NCBI RefSeq assembly: GCF_013408175.1
Contig: NZ_JACBYW010000003.1
Span: 1 to 64,000, forward strand
DNA length: 64,000 bases
Origin: Actinopolyspora biskrensis
Lineage (GTDB): Bacteria > Actinomycetota > Actinomycetes > Mycobacteriales > Pseudonocardiaceae
Direction: 5' to 3'
Each line of letters begins with the position of its first letter. Position 1 is the first letter of the stretch. The notes beneath the pieces are model-generated. The model was not told the DNA's origin. It searched no databases and worked only from the letters and a program-made list of their open reading frames with translations. Below, piece by piece: positions 2,549-40,753 of this stretch. The position numbers and the translations under genes are program-made.

Positions 2549-3434
2549 AGGCGAACAACCGGTGAGCGGACGGGAGCGGGTGACGGTGCCCAAAACCTAC
2601 AAGCTCCACATCGGAGGGTCCTTTCCCAGGTCCGAGTCGGGCCGTGTCCGCACCGTCGAGGACGCCGGTGGCCGCTTCCTCGCGAACGCCGCCGTGGCCT
2701 CGCGCAAGGATCTGCGCGACGCCGTGGCCGCCGCGCGGAAGGGGTTCGAGACCTGGTCCGGGGCGACCGCGCGGAATCGTGGCCAGGTGCTGTTCCGCGT
2801 CGCCGAGATGCTGGAGGACAGGCGCGAGCAGTTCACCTCCCTGGTCTCGGACGCCGAGGGCCTCTCCCGCGAACAGGCGGCAGCCACTGTGGACACCGCT
2901 GTCGACCGGATCTTCTGGTACGCGGGCTGGACCGACAAGATCGGAACCGTGCTCGGCGGCGCGAACCAGGTGTCCGGTCCCTACACGTCTCATTCCGCGC
3001 CGGAACCTCTCGGCGTGGTCGGCGTGCTGGCTCCCCGGCACTCCTCGCTGCTGGGGCTGGTCAGCGTGCTCGCCCCGGTGATCGCGGTCGGCAACGGCGC
3101 GGTGGTCCTCGTCGACCGCGAACGACCGTTGCCCGCGGTGACGCTGTGCGAGGTGCTGGCCACCTCCGACGTGCCGGGCGGAGTCGTCAACGTGCTCACC
3201 GGGGACGCCGGGGAGCTGGCTCCGTGGCTGGCCTCGCACGCCGACGTGAACGCCCTGGACCCGACCGGAGCGCCGGAGTCGCTCCGCGCCGAGCTGGAGC
3301 GCAACGCCTCGGGAACGGCGAAGCGAGTGTTCGACGCCCCTGCCGCGGAGCCGGACTGGAACCGAGATCCCGGACTGCGTCGTATGCGCGCGTTCACCGG
3401 GCTGAAAACGGTGTGGCACCCCCTCGGGGCCTGA
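2541..3434 (+). CDS. Short aldehyde dehydrogenase-like protein lacking the catalytic domain
   Basis: A 297-residue protein that matches the N-terminal, coenzyme-binding half of aldehyde dehydrogenases (YKLHIGGSFPRSESG near the start; PEPLGVVGVLAP; PGGVVNVLTGD) and then ends after a short unrelated tail. The region with the catalytic cysteine and glutamate is missing. ATG at 2541 lies inside the end of the preceding gene, so translation is probably coupled. Actinobacteria often carry such a full/half pair after deoC. It may form a heteromer with the upstream protein or act as a structural subunit. There is no internal stop, so it does not look like recent decay. Confidence 0.75.
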   Translation: MSEGEQPVSGRERVTVPKTYKLHIGGSFPRSESGRVRTVEDAGGRFLANAAVASRKDLRDAVAAARKGFETWSGATARNRGQVLFRVAEMLEDRREQFTSLVSDAEGLSREQAAATVDTAVDRIFWYAGWTDKIGTVLGGANQVSGPYTSHSAPEPLGVVGVLAPRHSSLLGLVSVLAPVIAVGNGAVVLVDRERPLPAVTLCEVLATSDVPGGVVNVLTGDAGELAPWLASHADVNALDPTGAPESLRAELERNASGTAKRVFDAPAAEPDWNRDPGLRRMRAFTGLKTVWHPLGA

Positions 3435-6519: not shown

Positions 6520-7713
6520 GTGAACGAGAACAACCAAGACACGGTGTCGTTCGACCGTATGCGGAACATGCTGACACGGGCCGCGGAGATCCGCGAAAGC
6601 GAACAGCAGCAGATCTTCGACGCTCTCGACGAGATCAACGCCCGGATGTCGCCGCTGGAGTCCCTCGGCTCCGTACGCAAACGGCTGTCCGAGCTGCCCG
6701 ATCGCACCGAAGTCAGCGTGCTCGCCGAACGACTCGACGAGGCATTATCCAAACTGGAGTCCCAGGAAAACGCGATCGCCGGGCTCAACACCCAGGTCGA
6801 AGGACTCGCCGACAAATTATCCAAGCCGTTCGCACAGCTGGACGGCAGGCTCGACGGGATGGCGGGCCGTTTCGACGGTGTCACGGGCCGGATGGACGGC
6901 TTGGAGGACAAGCTCACGCACGTCCACCAGCGACTCGAGGAACTGGGCCAACATCTGGACAAACAGGACACTCGTCTGGACGAGGTCCCCGGTTCGGTCC
7001 AGGAACCGCTGCGGGAACGTCTCGAGCAGATGGAGACCAGCCTGCGCGGCCGGTTCGCCGAGATCGACGAGGGCGTGCACGAACATCTCGACGGCACCAG
7101 GGAATCGTTGCAGCGCTCGGTGACCGAGGCGGCCCAGGAGGTCCGCAACGGCATCGGGGAGAACCTCTCCGAGAGCTCCGAGAAGATCAACGGCAAGTTG
7201 GACTCGCTCGCCGAGCGTCCCGCGGTGGACCCCACCGAACGGTTGCAGCAGCTCGCCGACCGGCTCGAATCGCTGGCGGGCCGCCTGGACGAGGTCTCCG
7301 GCCGGATCGACTCGGTCGAGGAGAACGTCAACAACCGGATCGACTCGGTGGAGAGCGGAGTCACCGAACGGATCGGCGACGTCGGCAGCACGCTGGGCAA
7401 CGACCTGTCGCAGCTGCAGGGCACCCTCGCCGAACGCCCCGACGCGGAATCGCTGGACTCGCTGGTCCGCAATGCCAACGAGGAGAGCGAGCGCAAGCAC
7501 GCCGGGCAGCTCGACGAGGCCATGGCCACCTTCGCCGAACTGATCCTCGGTGGTGGAGCAGCTCCCACGAACAACAGCAACTCCGCGGTCTCCCCGCCGA
7601 CCACGCTGCCACGCCAGCAGCGCCGTGGGCGCTCCAAGAGCGCCAAACGGGAAGCGGACAAGCAGAACGGCGCCGAGGACTCGGACGACGACTACACGGC
7701 CGACACGGCCTGA
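6520..7713 (+). CDS. Long coiled-coil protein of unknown function
   Basis: A 397-residue protein predicted to be mostly heptad-repeat coiled coil from about residue 20 to 320, with runs such as LDGRLDGMAGRFDGV and RLDEVSGRIDSVEENV. A low-complexity Ser/Asn/Pro stretch follows, then a short basic patch (RRGRSKSAKREADK) and an acidic end. GTG at 6520 is chosen because a GAAGGA ribosome site sits upstream and the sequence before it is non-coding in character, although the frame stays open to 6193. There is no signal peptide or membrane segment. The architecture resembles structural or scaffold proteins of the cell pole or division site; no family is recognised. Confidence 0.7.
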   Translation: MNENNQDTVSFDRMRNMLTRAAEIRESEQQQIFDALDEINARMSPLESLGSVRKRLSELPDRTEVSVLAERLDEALSKLESQENAIAGLNTQVEGLADKLSKPFAQLDGRLDGMAGRFDGVTGRMDGLEDKLTHVHQRLEELGQHLDKQDTRLDEVPGSVQEPLRERLEQMETSLRGRFAEIDEGVHEHLDGTRESLQRSVTEAAQEVRNGIGENLSESSEKINGKLDSLAERPAVDPTERLQQLADRLESLAGRLDEVSGRIDSVEENVNNRIDSVESGVTERIGDVGSTLGNDLSQLQGTLAERPDAESLDSLVRNANEESERKHAGQLDEAMATFAELILGGGAAPTNNSNSAVSPPTTLPRQQRRGRSKSAKREADKQNGAEDSDDDYTADTA

Positions 7714-29186: not shown

Positions 29187-29594
29187 TCACGTCACCGGCG
29201 TGTTCTGCCCGATCCTGATTCGCCACTCGCCGTCGACCAGCTCGGCGATGACCATGAACATCGCCTCCACGGGATCTCCGCTCCACTCGGCACCGCCCGC
29301 CTCGGAACGGGCTGTGCGCTGTCGAGCGTGGACCGCGGCGAGCCCTGGTGCGAGGTGCGTGACGCTCTCGACCGTGTAATCGACGCTGACGTCCTCGAGC
29401 GGCCCGCCGGGGCCGAACACGGCGGACTGGGACCGGTACAGCGATTCCTTGCCGCGCACCAGCTTGCCACCGAAGTTGACGAAGACCGGGTCGTTCGCGA
29501 ACAGGTCGTTCATGGCCCCGGCCTCGTTCGCGTTGAACGCGTGCTCGTAGCTCTCGACGAGATCCGCCAGGGCGCGGTCGGTTTCGTTCCGCAA
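29187..29594 (-). CDS. SgcJ/EcaC-type SnoaL-like protein
   Basis: A 135-residue NTF2/SnoaL-fold protein. TTG at 29594 is the start, supported by AGGAGG 5-6 bases upstream. Family pattern: LADLVESYEHAFNANEAGAM, then LFANDPVFVNFGGKLVRG (the 'l...D..~~~~~G....G' loop) and DGEWRIRIGQNTPV at the end. Such proteins are small cofactor-free enzymes or binding proteins; substrate unknown. It lies just outside the left end of the island at 29.8 kb. Confidence 0.75.
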   Translation of the reverse strand: MRNETDRALADLVESYEHAFNANEAGAMNDLFANDPVFVNFGGKLVRGKESLYRSQSAVFGPGGPLEDVSVDYTVESVTHLAPGLAAVHARQRTARSEAGGAEWSGDPVEAMFMVIAELVDGEWRIRIGQNTPVT

Positions 29595-29707: not shown

Positions 29708-29827
29708 TCAGAAGTCGTAGCAGACGGTCACCGGAGCGTGGTCGCTCCACCGCTTGTCGTAGGACGGCGCGCGCTCCACCACCGCCTCGGCGGCGCGCCC
29801 GGCCAGCCCACCGGTGGCCACGTGGTA
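29708..29827 (-). pseudogene. Displaced original 3' end of xthA
   Basis: This strand reads HVATGGLAGRAAEAVVERA, then PSYDKRWSDHAPVTVCYDF and TGA at 29708-29710. It is the end of exonuclease III, matching the C-terminus of the full gene at 33.4 kb except that the full gene ends VTVSFDWPAS. It has no start. It is best read as the chromosome's own xthA tail, cut off when the 3.7-kb island inserted. Confidence 0.85.
29751..29827. repeat. Left 77-bp direct repeat, attL-like
   Basis: From CGCTTGTCGTAGGACGGC to CACGTGGTA, identical to 33474-33550 except one base (C here, T there, in CCTCGGYGGCGCG). Flanks differ immediately outside on the island side, and diverge by scattered changes on the xthA 3' side. 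This is the pattern left by site-specific insertion into a coding sequence. Confidence 0.85.
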
Positions 29828-29944
29828 ACGGTCTTGTGTCCCCGGATACTCCTCCGGTGACCGTGAAGACCCGGAAGTGGCATTTGTTGGTCAGGGCCGG
29901 GCGATAATGTCCGGCCCCTTCTTTCCGCAAAGCAAGGCGACCAA

Positions 29945-30198
29945 ATGAGACGCTGCCGCGATCGCCAGGACGAGATTCGACCTGGCACCGGTTCACGGTG
30001 CCCCGAATGCAGAGCGAGACTTTCGAAGTGTGCGTTAACGGACACGATAATTTCCACGCGGAGAACCGACCCGATGGCGCACGGGTGTGCATGAAGTGCC
30101 GGAATATGTACCACGAGAGAGGCCGGATCAACGGTCGTAGTGCTAACTCCGCCCCACCGCCGCCATCAAGCGGCGCGACGACCGAAAGGCGAATAACC
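29945..30198 (+). pseudogene. Remnant of a small phage-type zinc-binding protein
   Basis: Two overlapping frames carry parts of a Cys-rich protein. From ATG 29945: a piece with MRRCRDRQDEIRPGTGSRCP and then ECRARLSK. From 30007, the next frame: VCVNGHDNFHAENRPDGARV then CMKC. The latter is the CxxGHd...N...RPDG.r.C..C pattern of small zinc-finger or HNH-like proteins of actinophages. A frameshift between the pieces, or two tiny overlapping genes, would explain this. It is the first coding-like sequence after the left end. Confidence 0.4.
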
Positions 30199-30523
30199 GT
30201 GACCGAGAACGACGCTAACAACGGGCGCGAAGTTCGAGCGCCCAAGACTCAGAACGAGCACCTTTGGTGCATCGTGAACATGAAGGAACTGATCCACGCT
30301 GAACGCTCTACGGCGTTCACGCTGCACGCGCTGTGCTACGTCAACGGTGGCGAACGAGAGGCAGCCAAGGAAATACCTCTCGCACAAGACCGGTGTCTCT
30401 CAAGGGAAGATTCCGGGTATCGCTACCAAGCTGGTCGGGCTTGGCTTGTTCGATCGAACGGACAACCGGAAGGGCGGCCGGAACAGCTTAGGACCCGCAA
30501 CCCCCGGGACCCCCTCCGGATGA
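30199..30523 (+). pseudogene. Helix-turn-helix gene with a +1 frameshift
   Basis: From GTG 30199 the frame reads VTENDANNGREVRAPK then NEHLWCIVNMKELIHAERS and FTLHALCYVNGGER. The natural continuation is in the next frame, RQPRKYLSHKTGVSQGKIPG and IATKLVGLGLFDRTDNRKG, stopping at 30521-30523. Together this is a winged-helix protein of about 107 residues, of a type common in actinomycete mobile elements. One extra base near GAACGAGAGGCAGCC (about 30352-30366) separates the halves. It could be a mutation or a programmed shift. Confidence 0.5.
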
Positions 30524-30587
30524 GGACCCAGACACCGGGGGGAGAGCGCCTGACTTTCTGTGCAAAACTCAAATCCCTCAGACACGA

Positions 30588-30632
30588 AACCCCTGGTCAT
30601 GACTTCGATCAGTAAAGCCATGACCAGGGGTT
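30588..30632. terminator. Hairpin between convergent island transcripts
   Basis: AACCCCTGGTCATG and CATGACCAGGGGTT form a perfect 14-bp stem around a 17-nt loop. It lies between the top-strand remnant gene and the end of the bottom-strand operon. Confidence 0.75.
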
Positions 30633-30690
30633 CTATGTTCAGGGGCGCTGATTTGCGCTGTGAGAGCTTGAGAAGGCTTCCCCGGACCCA

Positions 30691-31107
30691 TCACCCTAGC
30701 GGCCGGATGATGACCGGCTGTGGAAGGTCGTCCGGCAGGAAGCACGGAACGTCCGGAGCTTCGAGCGCCATCGGTGCGCCCGGCTCCCCTGGCTCGGGAA
30801 GTCCGAGGATCGCTCGCAGCGCCCACAGCGCGCTTGAGTGGTACTGGTACGAGACCCGTTCCGGGTTGAACACTCCGGTGTCGTCCATCGTCGGCACGCG
30901 GTAGCCGGTCGCCCGGTGCTCGTCCCGCAGGATGAGGACATCCGCGCACGACTGGCGTTTGAACATCGCTGCCATGAGCTGAGGCTGACGCTCCGGCCCC
31001 CAGCGGATGAGCGTCCACCGTCGCCGCCGTAGCTCCTTGAGCAAGTCCTCAAGTTCGAGCGAGAACCTCTCCGCGGGCTTGTCCAGCTTTCCCGTCACCG
31101 TCGGCAT
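30691..31107 (-). CDS. Conserved hypothetical protein linked to XRE-DUF5753 regulators
   Basis: A 138-residue soluble protein starting MPTVTGKLDKPAERFSLELE. The centre, LIRWGPERQPQLMAAMF and SYQYHSSALWALRAILGLPE, then a Pro-rich C-terminus, is a pattern I associate with small hypothetical proteins found beside XRE/DUF5753 genes in Pseudonocardiales. No motif indicates a reaction. It is the last gene of the bottom-strand island operon, 39 bases after the regulator. Confidence 0.6.
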   Translation of the reverse strand: MPTVTGKLDKPAERFSLELEDLLKELRRRRWTLIRWGPERQPQLMAAMFKRQSCADVLILRDEHRATGYRVPTMDDTGVFNPERVSYQYHSSALWALRAILGLPEPGEPGAPMALEAPDVPCFLPDDLPQPVIIRPLG

Positions 31108-31146
31108 ACACCGACACTAAGACGGCAGGTCATCCCGTTTCGAGTT

Positions 31147-32004
31147 TTAGTCACGTGCTGGCATAAATTCCTCGGCAACCGTGCCGAGAAGGGTCTTCGC
31201 GTTCTCTCCGGTAAGGGATCGTTCGCGGAAGTAGTCAAACACGTTCAGGTGATAGGTAATGTCCCGATAGTCGCGTAAAGCGACGGTCCCGGAAAACATT
31301 TCGACGGTCACGAGCCGTTCATCATAGACAATGAAGATGTTCAACGGTGGAGAGCTGACCTGAGCCGAGTTCGGCAGGATAGCTAGGTCAACGTTCGGCC
31401 GTTGGGCTACCTCGCTCATGTGCCGTAACTGATCAGCCATAACCGGCGCTGGTGCTTGCTTGAGCCTGATCGCTTGCTCTGTCAGCAGGAAGTGGAACGA
31501 GCGTGATTCATCGTTCAACACGTCCTGAGCGTCTAGCCGCGCGTTTACGGCCCGATCAATATCGCGGGCGGTATCACCTTCGATGACCGGCGTTAGGACG
31601 CTACGCGCGTATTCAGGGGTTTGAATCAGACCGGATGGTATGACCGGCAAGAAATGCCGGACCGTCGAAGACGACTCGCAAAGAGCTTTGATCTCGGCTT
31701 GCCGTCGCCAGATTCCCATACGGGCCGACGAACGGACGGACACGTATTCGACGTTCGCCGTACGAGCGAGCGCGAGAAGGTCGTTCGCGACGTCGGACGG
31801 TACCGATTCGAGCCCTTGAAGAATCCGCTCCACGTCGGCAACGGACGGCAAGACACGACCGGACTCAATACGGCTGATCTTGGACTGAGACATAGCAGTA
31901 CGAGCGGCTAGCCTCTCCCCGGAGAGTCCAGCCGCTTTCCGTAGCTGCTTGAGCGTGTCCGCTAGGTTCTTACGGTCTCGCTTCTCGGTATCAGGTTCGA
32001 GCAT
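31147..32004 (-). CDS. XRE-family regulator with DUF5753 (Scr1/WhiJ-like)
   Basis: A 285-residue DNA-binding protein. The N-terminal HTH spans about residues 10-65 (LKQLRKAAGLSGERLAART, then MSQSKISRIESGRVLPS). The C-terminal DUF5753 region (about 100-280) includes FLPVIPSGLIQTPEYARSVL and LDAQDVLNDESRSFHFLLTE. The ATG at 32004 is preferred to an upstream one at 32034; it overlaps the end of the preceding gene by 14 bases. Such regulators usually act with a small partner protein from a neighbouring gene, as in the WhiJ-type developmental systems. Confidence 0.9.
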   Translation of the reverse strand: MLEPDTEKRDRKNLADTLKQLRKAAGLSGERLAARTAMSQSKISRIESGRVLPSVADVERILQGLESVPSDVANDLLALARTANVEYVSVRSSARMGIWRRQAEIKALCESSSTVRHFLPVIPSGLIQTPEYARSVLTPVIEGDTARDIDRAVNARLDAQDVLNDESRSFHFLLTEQAIRLKQAPAPVMADQLRHMSEVAQRPNVDLAILPNSAQVSSPPLNIFIVYDERLVTVEMFSGTVALRDYRDITYHLNVFDYFRERSLTGENAKTLLGTVAEEFMPARD

Positions 32005-32500
32005 TAAACTCACTGAACGGCACCGCGTAGGCAAGTGCCGTGTCTCGCCACTTCCGGTACATCAACAGATCCGGGTTTTCCCGCTGATCAAGGTTGATCA
32101 ACGTCCCGTCCGGGTTGAAGTTGAGATCAACCACGGTTTCGTCATCGAACAACCAGAAGTCATGTGCCGGAAGGTCAAGCTCAAGTTCGGTCGCGTCAAG
32201 GATGCGGATATCCTCCCCGGCTTCGATGTTGCCGGGTATCGACCAATCGAACTGGTGACGCTGGTACTCGGTGAAGGGCCGACGCACGACCCGGACACGG
32301 CCGATGGTCTTACCGGCCGCGAGGTAGCCGCGTACGCGTTCGTGCCACGCGGAGTTGTACCCCTCGGGCATCGGTTCCCCAGCACGCCAGAGTTCTAGCT
32401 CTTCTTGCTCCCCCGGCATGGTGTACGTCGGCTGAGTCTCGAAACGCCAGGCGGACCGCTGACACTCCGCGAACCGTTCGCGCAGGTTCGACAGGATCAC
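31991..32500 (-). CDS. DUF6879-type protein
   Basis: A 169-residue soluble protein from GTG 32500, which overlaps the preceding stop (GTGA). Recognised by the run ERFAECQRSAWRFETQPTYT at the start, and by IGRVRVVRRPFTEYQRHQFD, HDFWLFDDETVVDLNFNPDG and the final YRKWRDTALAYAVPFSEF. It is typically encoded beside XRE-DUF5753 regulators. Overlaps on both sides imply coupled translation of the three proteins. Biochemical role unknown. Confidence 0.85.
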   Translation of the reverse strand: MILSNLRERFAECQRSAWRFETQPTYTMPGEQEELELWRAGEPMPEGYNSAWHERVRGYLAAGKTIGRVRVVRRPFTEYQRHQFDWSIPGNIEAGEDIRILDATELELDLPAHDFWLFDDETVVDLNFNPDGTLINLDQRENPDLLMYRKWRDTALAYAVPFSEFNART

Positions 32501-32700
32501 TGCTTGACCCCCTGAAGGGCTTCCACGGCGGCTAGGACAACTTCCGGGGGCAGCTCTACGGCTGTTTCCCCGTCACCAAGGGTGAGCCCTTCTGTACCGG
32601 TCTCAACCGGGACCCCCTGGACTACGGCCGTGCCACGGTCGGAGACGTAGACGGCCGGACAGTTGTCGTCTTTGCACTCGGTGACCTTGTGAAGTCTCAT
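32497..32700 (-). CDS. Small acidic protein, first gene of the island operon
   Basis: A 67-residue protein from ATG 32700: MRLHKVTECKDDNCPAVYVS, with CxxxxC, then an acidic, beta-rich rest (VVQGVPVETGTEGLTLGDGE). A longer frame to 32781 exists but adds only a basic, unconserved-looking stretch. Small acidic partners like this often sit next to XRE-DUF5753 regulators and modulate them; that role is inferred from position. Confidence 0.65.
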   Translation of the reverse strand: MRLHKVTECKDDNCPAVYVSDRGTAVVQGVPVETGTEGLTLGDGETAVELPPEVVLAAVEALQGVKQ

Positions 32701-32801
32701 GGTCACAGCTTCGGCCACCTGATCAGCACGGACAAGGGCTACCCGCGTTCTCGCATAAGACGGCCGGTCACGGGGAGGCAACCCCCGGAGATACGAGAAG
32801 C

Positions 32802-32821
32802 CCCCCGGCCGAAACCGGGGG
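32802..32821. terminator. Short strong hairpin upstream of the island operon
   Basis: CCCCCGG-CCGAAA-CCGGGGG, a perfect 7-bp GC stem, separating the bottom-strand operon from the non-coding right arm. It could insulate the two or end a leftward transcript from the arm. Confidence 0.6.
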
Positions 32822-33420
32822 TCAACCGTGCTACTTTACTTCCGCCAAGGTTCAAATAGCAGGGACGAGTGTACTCCCGGAAGGCACTCCCGGCGCTACC
32901 ACCCCAGGCAGGTAGCGGAGCAGACCGGTTGAGTCCTGGTGACGGTTCACGGCCGTTGAGTGCCCGGTTAGAGCGGGTGAACCTCGCGTGTCAGGCAGAG
33001 CGGGATCTAGGCGGACCCGGCCCCGTACTTGGTAAGCCCTGGCACTCATGCTCAGCGAGCATGCCCTTCATCGCAGTCTCGCTGCAACCCCCGGACCGGT
33101 GTAGGCGTAGCAACCTGCACGGGGTGACGTCCGAAGTCAACAACTCCCGACGGCAGATGTCACCTTCCCTTGATCTCGGGTGAACTGTGTCTGTTTCACG
33201 GCTCATGCGAGATCAGGAGGATCGAGCCTTACCGGGTCCCCCGCTCCGGCAGGCCGGGGGTTGGGACCGGGGTTACTTCGGACTCGGGACCACAAGCAGG
33301 CTTGGAGCAAGCAAGGCGACGGCAGGGCAGCCCGTAGGAACTGGCAAGCCGCCAGGGACGCCAGGGCAACCACAGCGCCGCGTGACTCACCCCAGCCGCG
33401 CGACGCGCTCCGGTAGCGTG
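32822..33420. other. 600-bp non-coding right arm of the island with many inverted repeats
   Basis: No credible frame on either strand. Inverted repeats include GGTTCAC...GTGAACC (about 32945-32985), CATGCTC-AGC-GAGCATG (about 33048-33064) and CCGGGTCCC...GGGACCGG (about 33228-33270). The density of stems and the motif GACGTCCGAAGTCAAC (about 33126-33141) suggest a structured RNA. A group II intron 5' domain that has lost its maturase is one idea; I cannot find a domain V, so this stays tentative. Confidence 0.4.
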
Positions 33421-33421
33421 A

Positions 33422-34228
33422 TCACGACGCAGGCCAGTCGAACGACACGGTTACGGGCGCGTGGTCACTCCATCGCTTGTCGTAGGACGGCGCGCGCTCC
33501 ACCACCGCCTCGGTGGCGCGCCCGGCCAGCCCACCGGTGGCCACGTGGTAGTCGATCCGCCAGCCGGAGTCGTTGTCGAAGGCCTTCCCCCGGTAGGACC
33601 ACCAGGAGTACGGCCCCGGCCCCTCGGGGAACAGGCCCCGGACCACATCGGTGTAGCCCGCCTCGTCGAACACCCTGCTCAGCCAGGCGCGTTCCTCGGG
33701 AAGGAAACCGGCCGACTTGCGGTTGTTCTTCCAGTTCTTCAGGTCGATCTCCTGGTGCGCGATGTTCCAGTCACCGCAGACCAGCACCTCCTTGCCCGCC
33801 CTCTCGGCCCGGGCCCGGAGCTCGTGCAGGTACGGCAGGAACTCATCCATGAAGCGTTCCTTCTCGTCCTGCTTCGGAGTCCCGGCCTCCCCGCTGGGCA
33901 GGTAGAGACTGCCGATGACCAGGCCGTCCAGCTCGATCTCGGCGTACCGGCCGCTGGTGTCGAACTCCTCGGAACCGAAGCCGATCCTGCTGTTCACCGG
34001 GGTGACGCGGCTGTAAACGGCGACTCCGCTGCGTCCCTTGTCCGCACTCGGGGCGAGCAGGGTGTGCCACCCCTCGGGAGCGCGCACCGCGTCCGAGAGC
34101 TGGTCGTACTCGGCACGCGTCTCCTGCATGCACACCACGTCGGCTCCGGTGGCGGCGAGCCACTCGACGAAGCCCTTCTTGGCCGCGGCGCGCAGGCCGT
34201 TCACATTCACCGTCGAGACAGTCAGCAC
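33422..34228 (-). CDS. xthA: Exonuclease III (xthA), with island-supplied C-terminus
   Basis: A 268-residue AP endonuclease/3'-5' exonuclease in base-excision repair. It starts at GTG 34228 (VLTVSTVNVNGLRAAAKKGF). The catalytic blocks are MQETRAEYDQL, GRSGVAVYSRV, CGDWNIAHQEIDLKN (Asp and Asn), WRIDYHVAT and WSDHAPVTV (Asp-His). The last about 40 residues lie inside the right 77-bp repeat and beyond, so they come from the island; they end SFDWPAS rather than CYDF. All active-site residues are kept, so the enzyme should be functional. Confidence 0.95.
   Translation of the reverse strand: MLTVSTVNVNGLRAAAKKGFVEWLAATGADVVCMQETRAEYDQLSDAVRAPEGWHTLLAPSADKGRSGVAVYSRVTPVNSRIGFGSEEFDTSGRYAEIELDGLVIGSLYLPSGEAGTPKQDEKERFMDEFLPYLHELRARAERAGKEVLVCGDWNIAHQEIDLKNWKNNRKSAGFLPEERAWLSRVFDEAGYTDVVRGLFPEGPGPYSWWSYRGKAFDNDSGWRIDYHVATGGLAGRATEAVVERAPSYDKRWSDHAPVTVSFDWPAS
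33474..33550. repeat. Right 77-bp direct repeat, attR-like
   Basis: Within the xthA coding region, encoding YHVATGGLAGRATEAVVERA plus about six more residues. Identical to 29751-29827 but for one base that changes Ala to Thr. The strand exchange must have taken place inside this stretch. Confidence 0.85.
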
Positions 34229-39535: not shown

Positions 39536-40681
39536 ATCACGATTCTATGTCGAGACGCCGACTCCCAACGTAGCAGGTTGAACACGAAAAGTGCTCCAAG
39601 CGACGAACGTGACCACGTGACGCCCCGCGACTGGAGCGCCCATCCCCACGGCAGCCGAACACGGACCCGCGTGACCACCCGAATACGCACCGTAATAGGT
39701 GTCCCTGACAGGGATATCCCCGCGGGGGATATCCCTGGCGGTCACAGTTGTCCGCCGACGCCGCCGACGCACAGAATCCGATGTGGTACGCGCTCACAAC
39801 ACCGAATGATCCCCGACCGCCACGACCTCGCCGCCCGAACCGGCCTCCCCGCGAGGCCCTCCGACCGGGTCCGCGACGGCTTTCCGAGAACCTGCCCCTG
39901 GGGGAAAGCCTCGACACCACATCGGCGTCGAGGCGGGGCCGGGGAGCTGAGGCTCCCCGGCCCGCAGGGGACGACGGAACCCAGCCGGGCGCGCCACCGG
40001 CACCCGTTGGAACCGGTGCCGACTGTCCGGTTCGGCGTCCCGGCCCTCCGGGCCACCACATGGACTCACCGATGTCCGGGGACGGCGCGGGGACCGGCGA
40101 CGAACGCACGATCAGCGTATCCGGCGGCACCCCGAACGCCACTATGAACGCCGGCAGGGTCAGGAACGGGATCGGCAGCACGGCCGGTGCCGCGAGCACC
40201 ACTCCGGCGGAGGTGCTCGGTGAGCCGCACCAGGACGCCGACGCGGACGAGCTCTGGCGCTGTCCCGGCAACCGGGGCTGGCCCTCGAGGGCAGCACGGA
40301 GATCTTGACCCGAGTGCGCTCCCGCGCCGCCGTCCGGGCAGTTCCGCGGGAGGAGCTCGATCCGGTGGGGCCGGCCGCGCACGGACCGCGCAACGCCGTG
40401 GACGAGGCGCTCGAGGTAGCCCGGATGCATCCGTGAGTCCGCTCGGAACGACGTGCGAAACGTTCCGGAGAGCCGGACAGGGCGCGTATGCCGTGCTGCT
40501 TCTTCCGGTTCAGCTACTGTCCGAAAAAGACACCGGGGACGAACCCCTCGCCAGGGTGATTCCGCATGGGGCCGAAGGCTCACCGAGACGGCGCACGCGG
40601 TGGACGGACCAGCTGGTGGTGGGTCGGCGGCGAATCACGCCCACAACGTGATCGGGCCGTGCTCCCCGAAAGAAGAACGAG
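39536..40681. other. 1.15-kb intergenic region with gene remnants
   Basis: No confident gene. The first 200 bases contain the palindrome at 39710-39736. From about 40200 to 40436 the top strand has coding-like pieces in two frames, such as LALEGSTEILTRVRSRAAV then VPREELDPVGPAAHGPRNA and VDEALEVARMHP with a stop at 40434-40436. These could be the end of a decayed gene, but I cannot name it. Confidence 0.4.
39710..39736. promoter_or_regulatory. 27-bp palindrome made of two GGGATATCCC sites
   Basis: AGGGATATCCCC-GCG-GGGGATATCCCT. The arms are perfectly complementary and each arm contains the self-complementary 10-mer GGGATATCCC, so two identical dyad sites lie 15 bases apart centre to centre, about 1.5 helical turns. 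It lies upstream of the MmyB-like regulator gene and has no coding neighbour to the right for 900 bases. Confidence 0.6.
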
Positions 40682-40753
40682 TGCGCGATGCTGGGATCGA
40701 ACCAGCGACCTCTACCGTGTCAAGGTAGCGCTCTCCCGCTGAGCTAATCGCGC
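40682..40753 (-). tRNA. tRNA-Val (GAC)
   Basis: Cloverleaf on the bottom strand: acceptor GCGCGAT/ATCGCGC with discriminator A; D arm AGCTCAGCGGGAGAGC; anticodon stem CTACC/GGTAG around TTGACAC (anticodon GAC); T arm GCTGGTTCGATCCCAGC. 72 nt; CCA is not encoded. Confidence 0.95.

Follow-up and report, generated by a model that had tools for sequence, protein, structure and literature searches.

How does a small accessory island come to lie behind a housekeeping gene that is left whole, with a second copy of the end of that gene stranded on the far side? The question arises from the exodeoxyribonuclease III gene xthA in a stretch of 64,000 nt from Actinopolyspora biskrensis (GCF_013408175.1, contig NZ_JACBYW010000003.1, positions 1-64,000 of the forward strand; hereafter, the window). 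The full-length gene occupies 33425..34228 on the minus strand (TIGR00633, E 7.5e-72; PF03372) and ends in SFDWPAS, its intact C-terminus reading ...HAPVTVSFDWPAS. A repeat search of the window identifies direct repeats of 115 bp and 91% identity at 29713-29827 and 33436-33550; no other such pair appears when the window is compared with itself (same strand, E <= 1e-5, >75% identity, 0.2-10 kb spacing), and BLAST comparison of the gene tail with its own downstream sequence gives E = 5e-36. The core of the repeat, 29751-29827 and 33474-33550, is identical at 76/77 positions, which bears out and extends the 77-bp repeat with one mismatch reported in an earlier reading of the letters alone (hereafter, the sequence-only reading).

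The repeat is a mosaic, in which the two copies agree up to GACAAGCG and match at only 29/39 of the nucleotides that follow. The right copy (33436..33550, minus strand) is part of the full-length gene and combines a host-type segment, 33474-33550, with a different, apparently foreign tail that extends to the stop codon. The left copy (29708..29827, minus strand, with the repeat part at 29713-29827) is a displaced xthA 3' end with the sequence ...HAPVTVCYDF-stop; no gene body belongs to it, and island sequence precedes it. The sequence-only reading had likewise placed the right copy in the full gene ending in SFDWPAS and had described a second, promoterless gene end, CYDF and a stop, after the left copy. 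Direct repeats that restore the target gene are thus present at xthA, and the island between them, of 3.6 kb, has a G+C content of 61.1% vs 68.9% for the window. The only tRNA gene of the window, at 40681-40753, lies ~6.5 kb from xthA and was rejected as an attachment site. The junction falls at TACCACG, without a matching flank.

Which of the two ends is native can be addressed by comparison with relatives, drawn from a panel of 130 genomes of the Pseudonocardiaceae (G numbers; G000 is the window genome, and L numbers denote loci), ten of them Actinopolyspora, the window genome included. The 39 nt that follow GACAAGCG match G001 and G005 at 35/39 and 34/39 positions in the left copy, and at 31/39 and 28/39 in the right copy. 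The 77 bp before GACAAGCG are host-type in both copies, matching G001 and G005 at 70-73/77 positions and the other genomes at 58-64/77. The left flank is syntenic with the region behind xthA in G005, the tail matching over 121 bp at 90.9% and the sequence beyond it over 875 bp at 89.5%, including a SnoaL/DUF4440-like gene (29187..29594, minus strand) that is the native neighbor behind the xthA end; a blastn match of this flank to G001 (68% over 1 kb) was set aside, as no SnoaL match is present at this place in G001. Given the closer similarity of the left tail to G001 and G005 and the synteny of its flank with G005, the native end is most likely the left copy, and the gene now has a different one, SFDWPAS. 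This comparison supports the view, already proposed in the sequence-only reading, that a foreign block at the xthA 3' end supplied the present C-terminus of the gene.

That reading had also expected the relatives to provide empty sites ending in CYDF, and no such site was found in the closest relatives, G001 and G005: their xthA genes end in SYDF and SYDL, respectively, with an MNT gene directly behind xthA in both. Conversely, it had regarded island-less relatives with SFDWPAS as their only xthA tail as evidence to the contrary. This is partly the case: similar ends do exist without the island, in G004 and G009, where xthA has SFDWPKP and SFDWPKS, respectively, as its only end and no module was recognized behind it; however, because these genomes belong to another clade (gene-body DNA identity to the window of 85.7%, vs 95.5-95.8% for G001 and G005), the inference is not overturned. 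Among the nine other Actinopolyspora genomes, G003 and G007 have decayed MNT/HepT genes behind xthA, and G002, G006 and G008 have the DUF6879 module that is also found in the window island.

The xthA 3' end is a recurrent site. The xthA tail was matched in 112 of the 130 family genomes (the match in G011 is probably a paralog), and in 9 of the 112 a further, displaced tail lies near the first, namely in G000, G008 (where it is decayed and 14 kb off), G019 (which has two), G021, G022, G060, G063, G068 (weak) and G128. Additional matches at other places in the genomes, with 40-47% identity, were taken to be paralogs and not counted. With tails of equal length, the control genes ychF and fbiC yielded 1/128 displaced tails (in G127; a second match in G085 is on another contig) and 0/99, respectively, the latter being the weaker control, with a less conserved tail. 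Fisher p values are 0.005 against ychF, 0.003 against fbiC and 0.0003 against both together, and 0.010 against ychF and 0.0007 against both when G000 is left out; a ychF case in G008 is invisible to protein search, so that the DNA-level count for ychF is at least 2. Among 80 named xthA loci, mostly from Streptomyces and examined up to 10 kb downstream (some contigs end sooner), displaced tails were found in Saccharopolyspora rosea (two) and S. elongata. Several weak matches were not counted as displaced tails: one ~9 kb behind xthA in Streptomyces triculaminicus (L128), those of 66-71% DNA identity in L172, L174, L177 and L182, and one of 70% 4 kb from xthA in G001.

The cargo differs from locus to locus. 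Between the tails of S. rosea lie MNT (PF01909) and HepT (PF01934) genes; the same pair was detected by tblastn in G128 and in decayed form in G021, and an MNT gene is found in G060. Other islands encode an XRE/DUF5753 protein with DUF397 (G063), a family-3 solute-binding protein with a family-less 178-aa open reading frame (ORF) (G019), or a family-less 128-aa ORF (S. elongata). In G060, the tail is repeated on both sides of a run of N inside the xthA tail (L140, G060:C19:17500-32000, ~2150-2300), possibly a tandem of cassettes collapsed in the assembly. HepT of the S. rosea type is encoded in 18 of the 130 family genomes, directly behind xthA in 15; in G042 and G058 it lies elsewhere in the genome, and G125 gave no xthA tail. 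The MNT match starts 16-51 bp behind the xthA stop codon in 13 of these 15 genomes, the distances in G024 and G021 being 91 and 170 bp. This neighborhood is widespread and usually lacks a stranded tail: among 17 loci with MNT behind xthA, a displaced tail is present in 4 and absent in 13, and none is clear in G001, G005 and G014. As a separate observation, the arrangement, with MNT and often HepT close behind xthA, mostly at 16-60 bp and decayed in several cases (L166-L177, L145, L033, L034, L042), places a repair exonuclease beside a toxin-antitoxin-like pair in many Pseudonocardiaceae.

The module of the window island, consisting of genes for a 94-aa protein, a DUF6879 protein, an XRE/DUF5753 regulator and a 138-aa protein, adjoins xthA in G002, G006, G008 and, in part, G010, with no intact displaced tail nearby, which counts against the sequence-only reading; the decayed tail in G008 lies 14 kb away. 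Relatives of the DUF6879 gene occur behind xthA also in G091, and 3.3 kb away in G076. A DUF6879/XRE module with 70% DNA identity to that of G002 lies behind a second gene, ychF (assigned by PF06071), in G008 (L160, G008:C14:410000-422000), where it is flanked by repeats of 165 bp and 98.8% identity (2858-3022 and 6615-6779) that include the last ~20 bp of ychF. In G127 (L219, G127:C40:140000-146500), the ychF 3' end is repeated directly over 102 bp at 96%, the copies starting ~1.4 kb apart; no recombinase was noticed among the ORFs of this stretch, which was inspected without a profile search.

How, then, did these blocks enter? We tentatively favor, by a narrow margin over the rival considered below and while placing it somewhat short of an even chance, the entry of the cassette by recombination anchored in xthA, with a non-homologous far joint. 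Incoming DNA from a strain or relative, consisting of an xthA 3' end and a cassette, would pair with the recipient xthA and recombine in the conserved 3' part of the gene, and its far end would be joined non-homologously inside the recipient's xthA tail. The outcome would be a whole gene with the incoming C-terminus and a native tail stranded behind the cassette. That the pathway was homology-facilitated illegitimate recombination (HFIR), or a closely related one that depends on RecA, is our inference, as are the donor and the order in which the events took place; the repeat, the mosaic switch point, the native character of the stranded tail, the different tail of the gene, the failure to find a tyrosine or serine recombinase and the recurrence with different cargo are observed directly.

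One-ended homologous recombination explains this architecture without a dedicated enzyme. In line with it, the 77 bp from the start of the displaced tail to the switch point are host-type in both copies, as if recipient DNA had been doubled, and similar repeats occur at ychF in G008 and G127. The greater similarity of the left tail to the close relatives, the lack of a convincing tyrosine or serine recombinase in the loci searched and the differing starts of the recent-looking tails fit it as well. HFIR has been proposed for the displacement of modules in type VI secretion systems (T6SS) (PMC5361080). In an E. coli conjugation study, 56 of the 60 candidate clones were reported to be duplications, ascribed to single crossovers, with only 4 cases of HFIR, and the duplications in 14 sequenced clones spanned 109-950 bp (PMC3240628); the repeats described here, at 102-165 bp, are of the same order.

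Several observations weigh against this reading. Thirteen displaced tails were placed relative to the tryptophan codon (W) of the WRID motif in xthA, in nucleotides, by gapped alignment, which the tails of G021, G019 and G060 require owing to gaps and Ns; the exact ungapped starts were kept for the two S. rosea tails, whose gapped ends overrun. Five of the 13, from different genera and with at least two kinds of cargo, start between W-3 and W+4: the first S. rosea tail (-3), G021 (-3), G128 (-2), G060 (-1 or +4) and the second G019 tail (0). Five starts within eight bases argue for a preferred point, although these tails may not be independent events, because four of the five share MNT cargo. 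Furthermore, G063 and the second S. rosea tail start at exactly the same base, CGACCAGCG at W+80. In S. rosea, G128 and G060, the displaced tails match the host gene at 97-100%, so that either the donors would be conspecific or the repeats were homogenized. The enrichment of xthA over ychF and fbiC suggests site preference. Because the left copy matches G002 equally well (35/39, the same as G001), the 39-nt stretch of the tail by itself is weak evidence of origin. Finally, HFIR in experiments is described as rare, usually leading to deletions and known mainly from competent bacteria. The gapped alignment of the starts lowered our estimate for recombination anchored in xthA from evenly balanced to its present level and raised that for its closest rival.

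That rival, which had seemed rather unlikely before the alignment and is now a possibility to be taken seriously, if below an even chance, holds that a recombinase provided in trans uses the xthA 3' end as its attachment site; the cassettes, satellite-like or integron-like, would each bring their own copy of the gene end, which restores xthA, and would accrete in tandem. It accounts for the enrichment at xthA, the clustering of starts around W, the tandem pairs of displaced tails seen in G019 and S. rosea, the different cargo at one site and the similar use of ychF 3' ends. However, the remaining starts are scattered: -11 for the first G019 tail, +12 for the window, +31 for G022, ~+34 for G068 (weak), +39 for S. 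elongata, +57 for G008 (decayed), and +80 for the two tails already mentioned. The recent-looking tails among them, those of the window, G022 (98/102 identical) and S. elongata (77/86), all differ, and a fixed crossover would not give such scattered recent starts, unless part of the tail was lost later. The absence of a displaced tail from 13 of the 17 loci with MNT behind xthA also counts against this possibility.

The recombinase that would act in trans was sought at several levels. Between the repeats of the window, the ORFs include no recombinase, replication or transfer family (six ORFs scanned with Pfam, four with PADLOC, four with NCBIfam and five with PHROGs), so that this part of the sequence-only reading held. 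PF00589 was found in 15/15 genomes searched and PF00239 in 11/12, with none in the islands or near xthA among the matches listed. Profiles built from 20 tyrosine (Y) and 10 serine (S) recombinase domains were run on 131 loci (2.2 Mb), nearly all around xthA genes and including the window and L160, some of them overlapping and some genomes covered twice; at E 0.01, these loci contained no Y or S recombinase apart from one borderline distant match in L121, which covers 57 residues and lies ~7 kb upstream of xthA (E 0.005). A leave-one-out control, which covered the Y domains only, recovered 18/20 of these. The only DNA-joining enzyme seen was a transposase with an rve core and HTH_38 in the G022 island, IS30-like by our own reading (transposases were not searched for systematically); we also read a fragment in the G060 island as a transposase. 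The phage, plasmid and viral-contig collections searched contained no carrier of an xthA tail, save that xthA-like matches occurred in three plasmid records and in one record of the phage collection, none being confirmed in viral contigs. The choice between decay and mobilization in trans offered by the sequence-only reading presumed an integrase, and none was found; the recent-looking tails start at different points, although 5 of the 13 cluster.

A broader claim, which the same alignment made slightly less unlikely than before and which we still consider unlikely, is that the 3' ends of xthA and, less so, ychF are attachment sites of an undescribed recombinase-less mini-cassette system in Pseudonocardiaceae and relatives. 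Its unit would be a gene end plus one accessory module, moved by a trans-acting or host activity that prefers the region of the WRID codon. If this is the case, mini-cassettes carry toxin-antitoxin-like or regulatory modules and, in Actinopolyspora, also a new large structured RNA.

Rather improbable, and behind both of the mechanisms above, is plain single-crossover (Campbell) integration, by RecA, of circular cassettes that contain part of the host xthA, with gene conversion between the repeats as a later step. Such integration yields direct repeats of the shared segment and agrees with the near-identical tail pairs in S. rosea, G060 and G128 as well as with the 165-bp ychF repeat. Nevertheless, the first 77 bp of the displaced copy in the window are host-type even though the incoming tail differs, so that an extra conversion step is needed, and no circular carrier of the cassette was detected in the phage, plasmid and viral-contig collections searched. 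Finally, it is highly improbable that the left copy represents a gene in its own right or an artifact of assembly: no supporting point was found, the copy has no gene body, its flank is syntenic with G005, the contig is 596,905 bp long with no N in the stretch read, duplicated reads would not give a mosaic repeat of 91% identity, and relatives share the architecture.

The xthA islands resemble several known systems. As in the Rhs, contact-dependent growth inhibition (CDI; cdiA-CT) and T6SS loci, a constant 5' part of a gene receives an incoming 3' end with linked cargo, the old end is stranded downstream, and ends accumulate in tandem; illegitimate joining has been proposed for T6SS and Rhs, and displaced ends have been described for CDI (PMC5361080, PMC4927057). 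Here, however, the affected gene encodes a housekeeping DNA-repair enzyme, what has been displaced is the C-terminus of exonuclease III, and the cargo is not a toxin domain of the gene itself with its immunity gene. Orphan CDI regions are said to typically contain integrase and transposase genes (PMC4927057), whereas here Pfam identified a transposase only in the G022 island (in addition to the fragment in G060). Integrase-encoding islands and actinomycete integrative and conjugative elements (AICEs) in gene 3' ends share the direct repeats, the restored gene end and the accretion at one site (PMC9513070, PMC3218068), but the window island lacks any int, rep or tra family, and the islands described here span 0.6-3.6 kb, with one 14-kb case with a decayed tail. 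AICEs are reported mainly at tRNA sites; one set comprises 36 tRNA sites and 14 in protein-coding genes, and the repeats can reach hundreds of nucleotides (PMC3218068, PMC9513070); the words "xth" and "exonuclease" are absent from the main text of both articles. One AICE of Frankia, which has a serine recombinase, disrupts a gene for a putative endonuclease, and the source does not state whether this is xthA. Integron cassettes, too, are small and are added behind a fixed gene with the older ones pushed away, but here the repeated element is the coding 3' end of the gene itself, and no intI-type recombinase was found: Pfam and our profiles, with no intI-specific model run, gave no tyrosine recombinase domain nearby. 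The MNT/HepT pairs of the relatives occupy the same position behind xthA, and the window island differs from them in its cargo.

The displacement of 3' ends is known from toxin genes, where the changing end is the point. Here, a housekeeping gene for DNA repair shows the same architecture, which recurs in several genera with small, unrelated cargo and no visible integrase. It provides a testable case of how small accessory modules enter fixed positions in the chromosome without an integrase, and such events can be counted in genomes by the readable signature of the stranded tail. The literature search returned no paper on xthA or exonuclease III as an integration site (unrelated matches only), and nothing on DUF6879, a structured RNA of Actinopolyspora, HEPN/MNT with exonuclease III, or islands without an integrase.

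In the orientation of xthA, the window island consists of a ~170 bp spacer, a ~465-nt non-coding sequence (32788..33252, minus strand), the module, a probable terminator and a distal part of ~830 bp. All module genes are on the minus strand: the small conserved 94-aa protein (32497..32781; shorter if an internal start is used), with one weak match (E 0.015) in the PADLOC and PHROGs scans; the DUF6879 protein (31991..32500; PF21806, Pfam E 9e-50); the XRE-type helix-turn-helix (HTH) and DUF5753 regulator (31147..32034; PF19054, E 7.9e-29; PF13560, E 4.7e-17); and the conserved 138-aa protein (30691..31107), without a family, for which an AlphaFold model from four sequences reached a pLDDT of 53, too poor for use. 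The PADLOC and PHROGs matches of the XRE protein are regulator or HTH families, with a very weak additional PADLOC match to a methyltransferase model; in NCBIfam, its HTH part weakly matched several HTH models, and the one of these that is the HTH of a MobT relaxase model (17 bits vs a cut-off of 600) was not counted. The probable terminator behind the module is an inverted repeat with 18-nt arms of 94% identity (30588..30632), and the distal part contains a low-G+C ORF without a family (29998..30615, plus strand) that looks decayed in our reading.

The non-coding sequence, with a hairpin end at ~32801-32822, is a candidate covarying structured RNA. It recurs in 10/10 Actinopolyspora genomes (loci L146-L165, besides the window, contain it), each with 1-7 copies and together with at least 39, counting copies of ~190 bp or longer, with at most 30 candidates per genome scored. 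Outside Actinopolyspora, a search of the 130 family genomes in which only five candidates per genome were scored yielded a partial match in G093 and three others that span 27-45 bp; none was found in plasmids, phages or viral contigs (the latter searched with one exact pattern). An alignment of 20 copies (404 columns, covering the 3' ~370 nt) gave a predicted structure of 81 pairs in 16 helices, in which 97.7% of the cells are paired, vs 89.3% in shuffles and 28-52% when the structure is slid; because the structure was derived from the same alignment, part of this margin is built in. Two-sided changes are seen in 26 pairs, vs 16.7 in shuffles; further pair types are not clearly above shuffles (48 vs 45.4, a level reached by 67/500). 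Rfam 15 gave no match at gathering thresholds, and a permissive scan gave a chance-level match to a miRNA (E 0.049, 23 bits vs 77). In several loci, the copies adjoin genes that we read as XRE/DUF397 or DUF6879, or lie behind ychF or a yciO-like gene. As a separate observation, L158 and L159 (G002:C1:4095000-4132000) contain repeat arrays with a unit of ~60 bp that are CRISPR-like.

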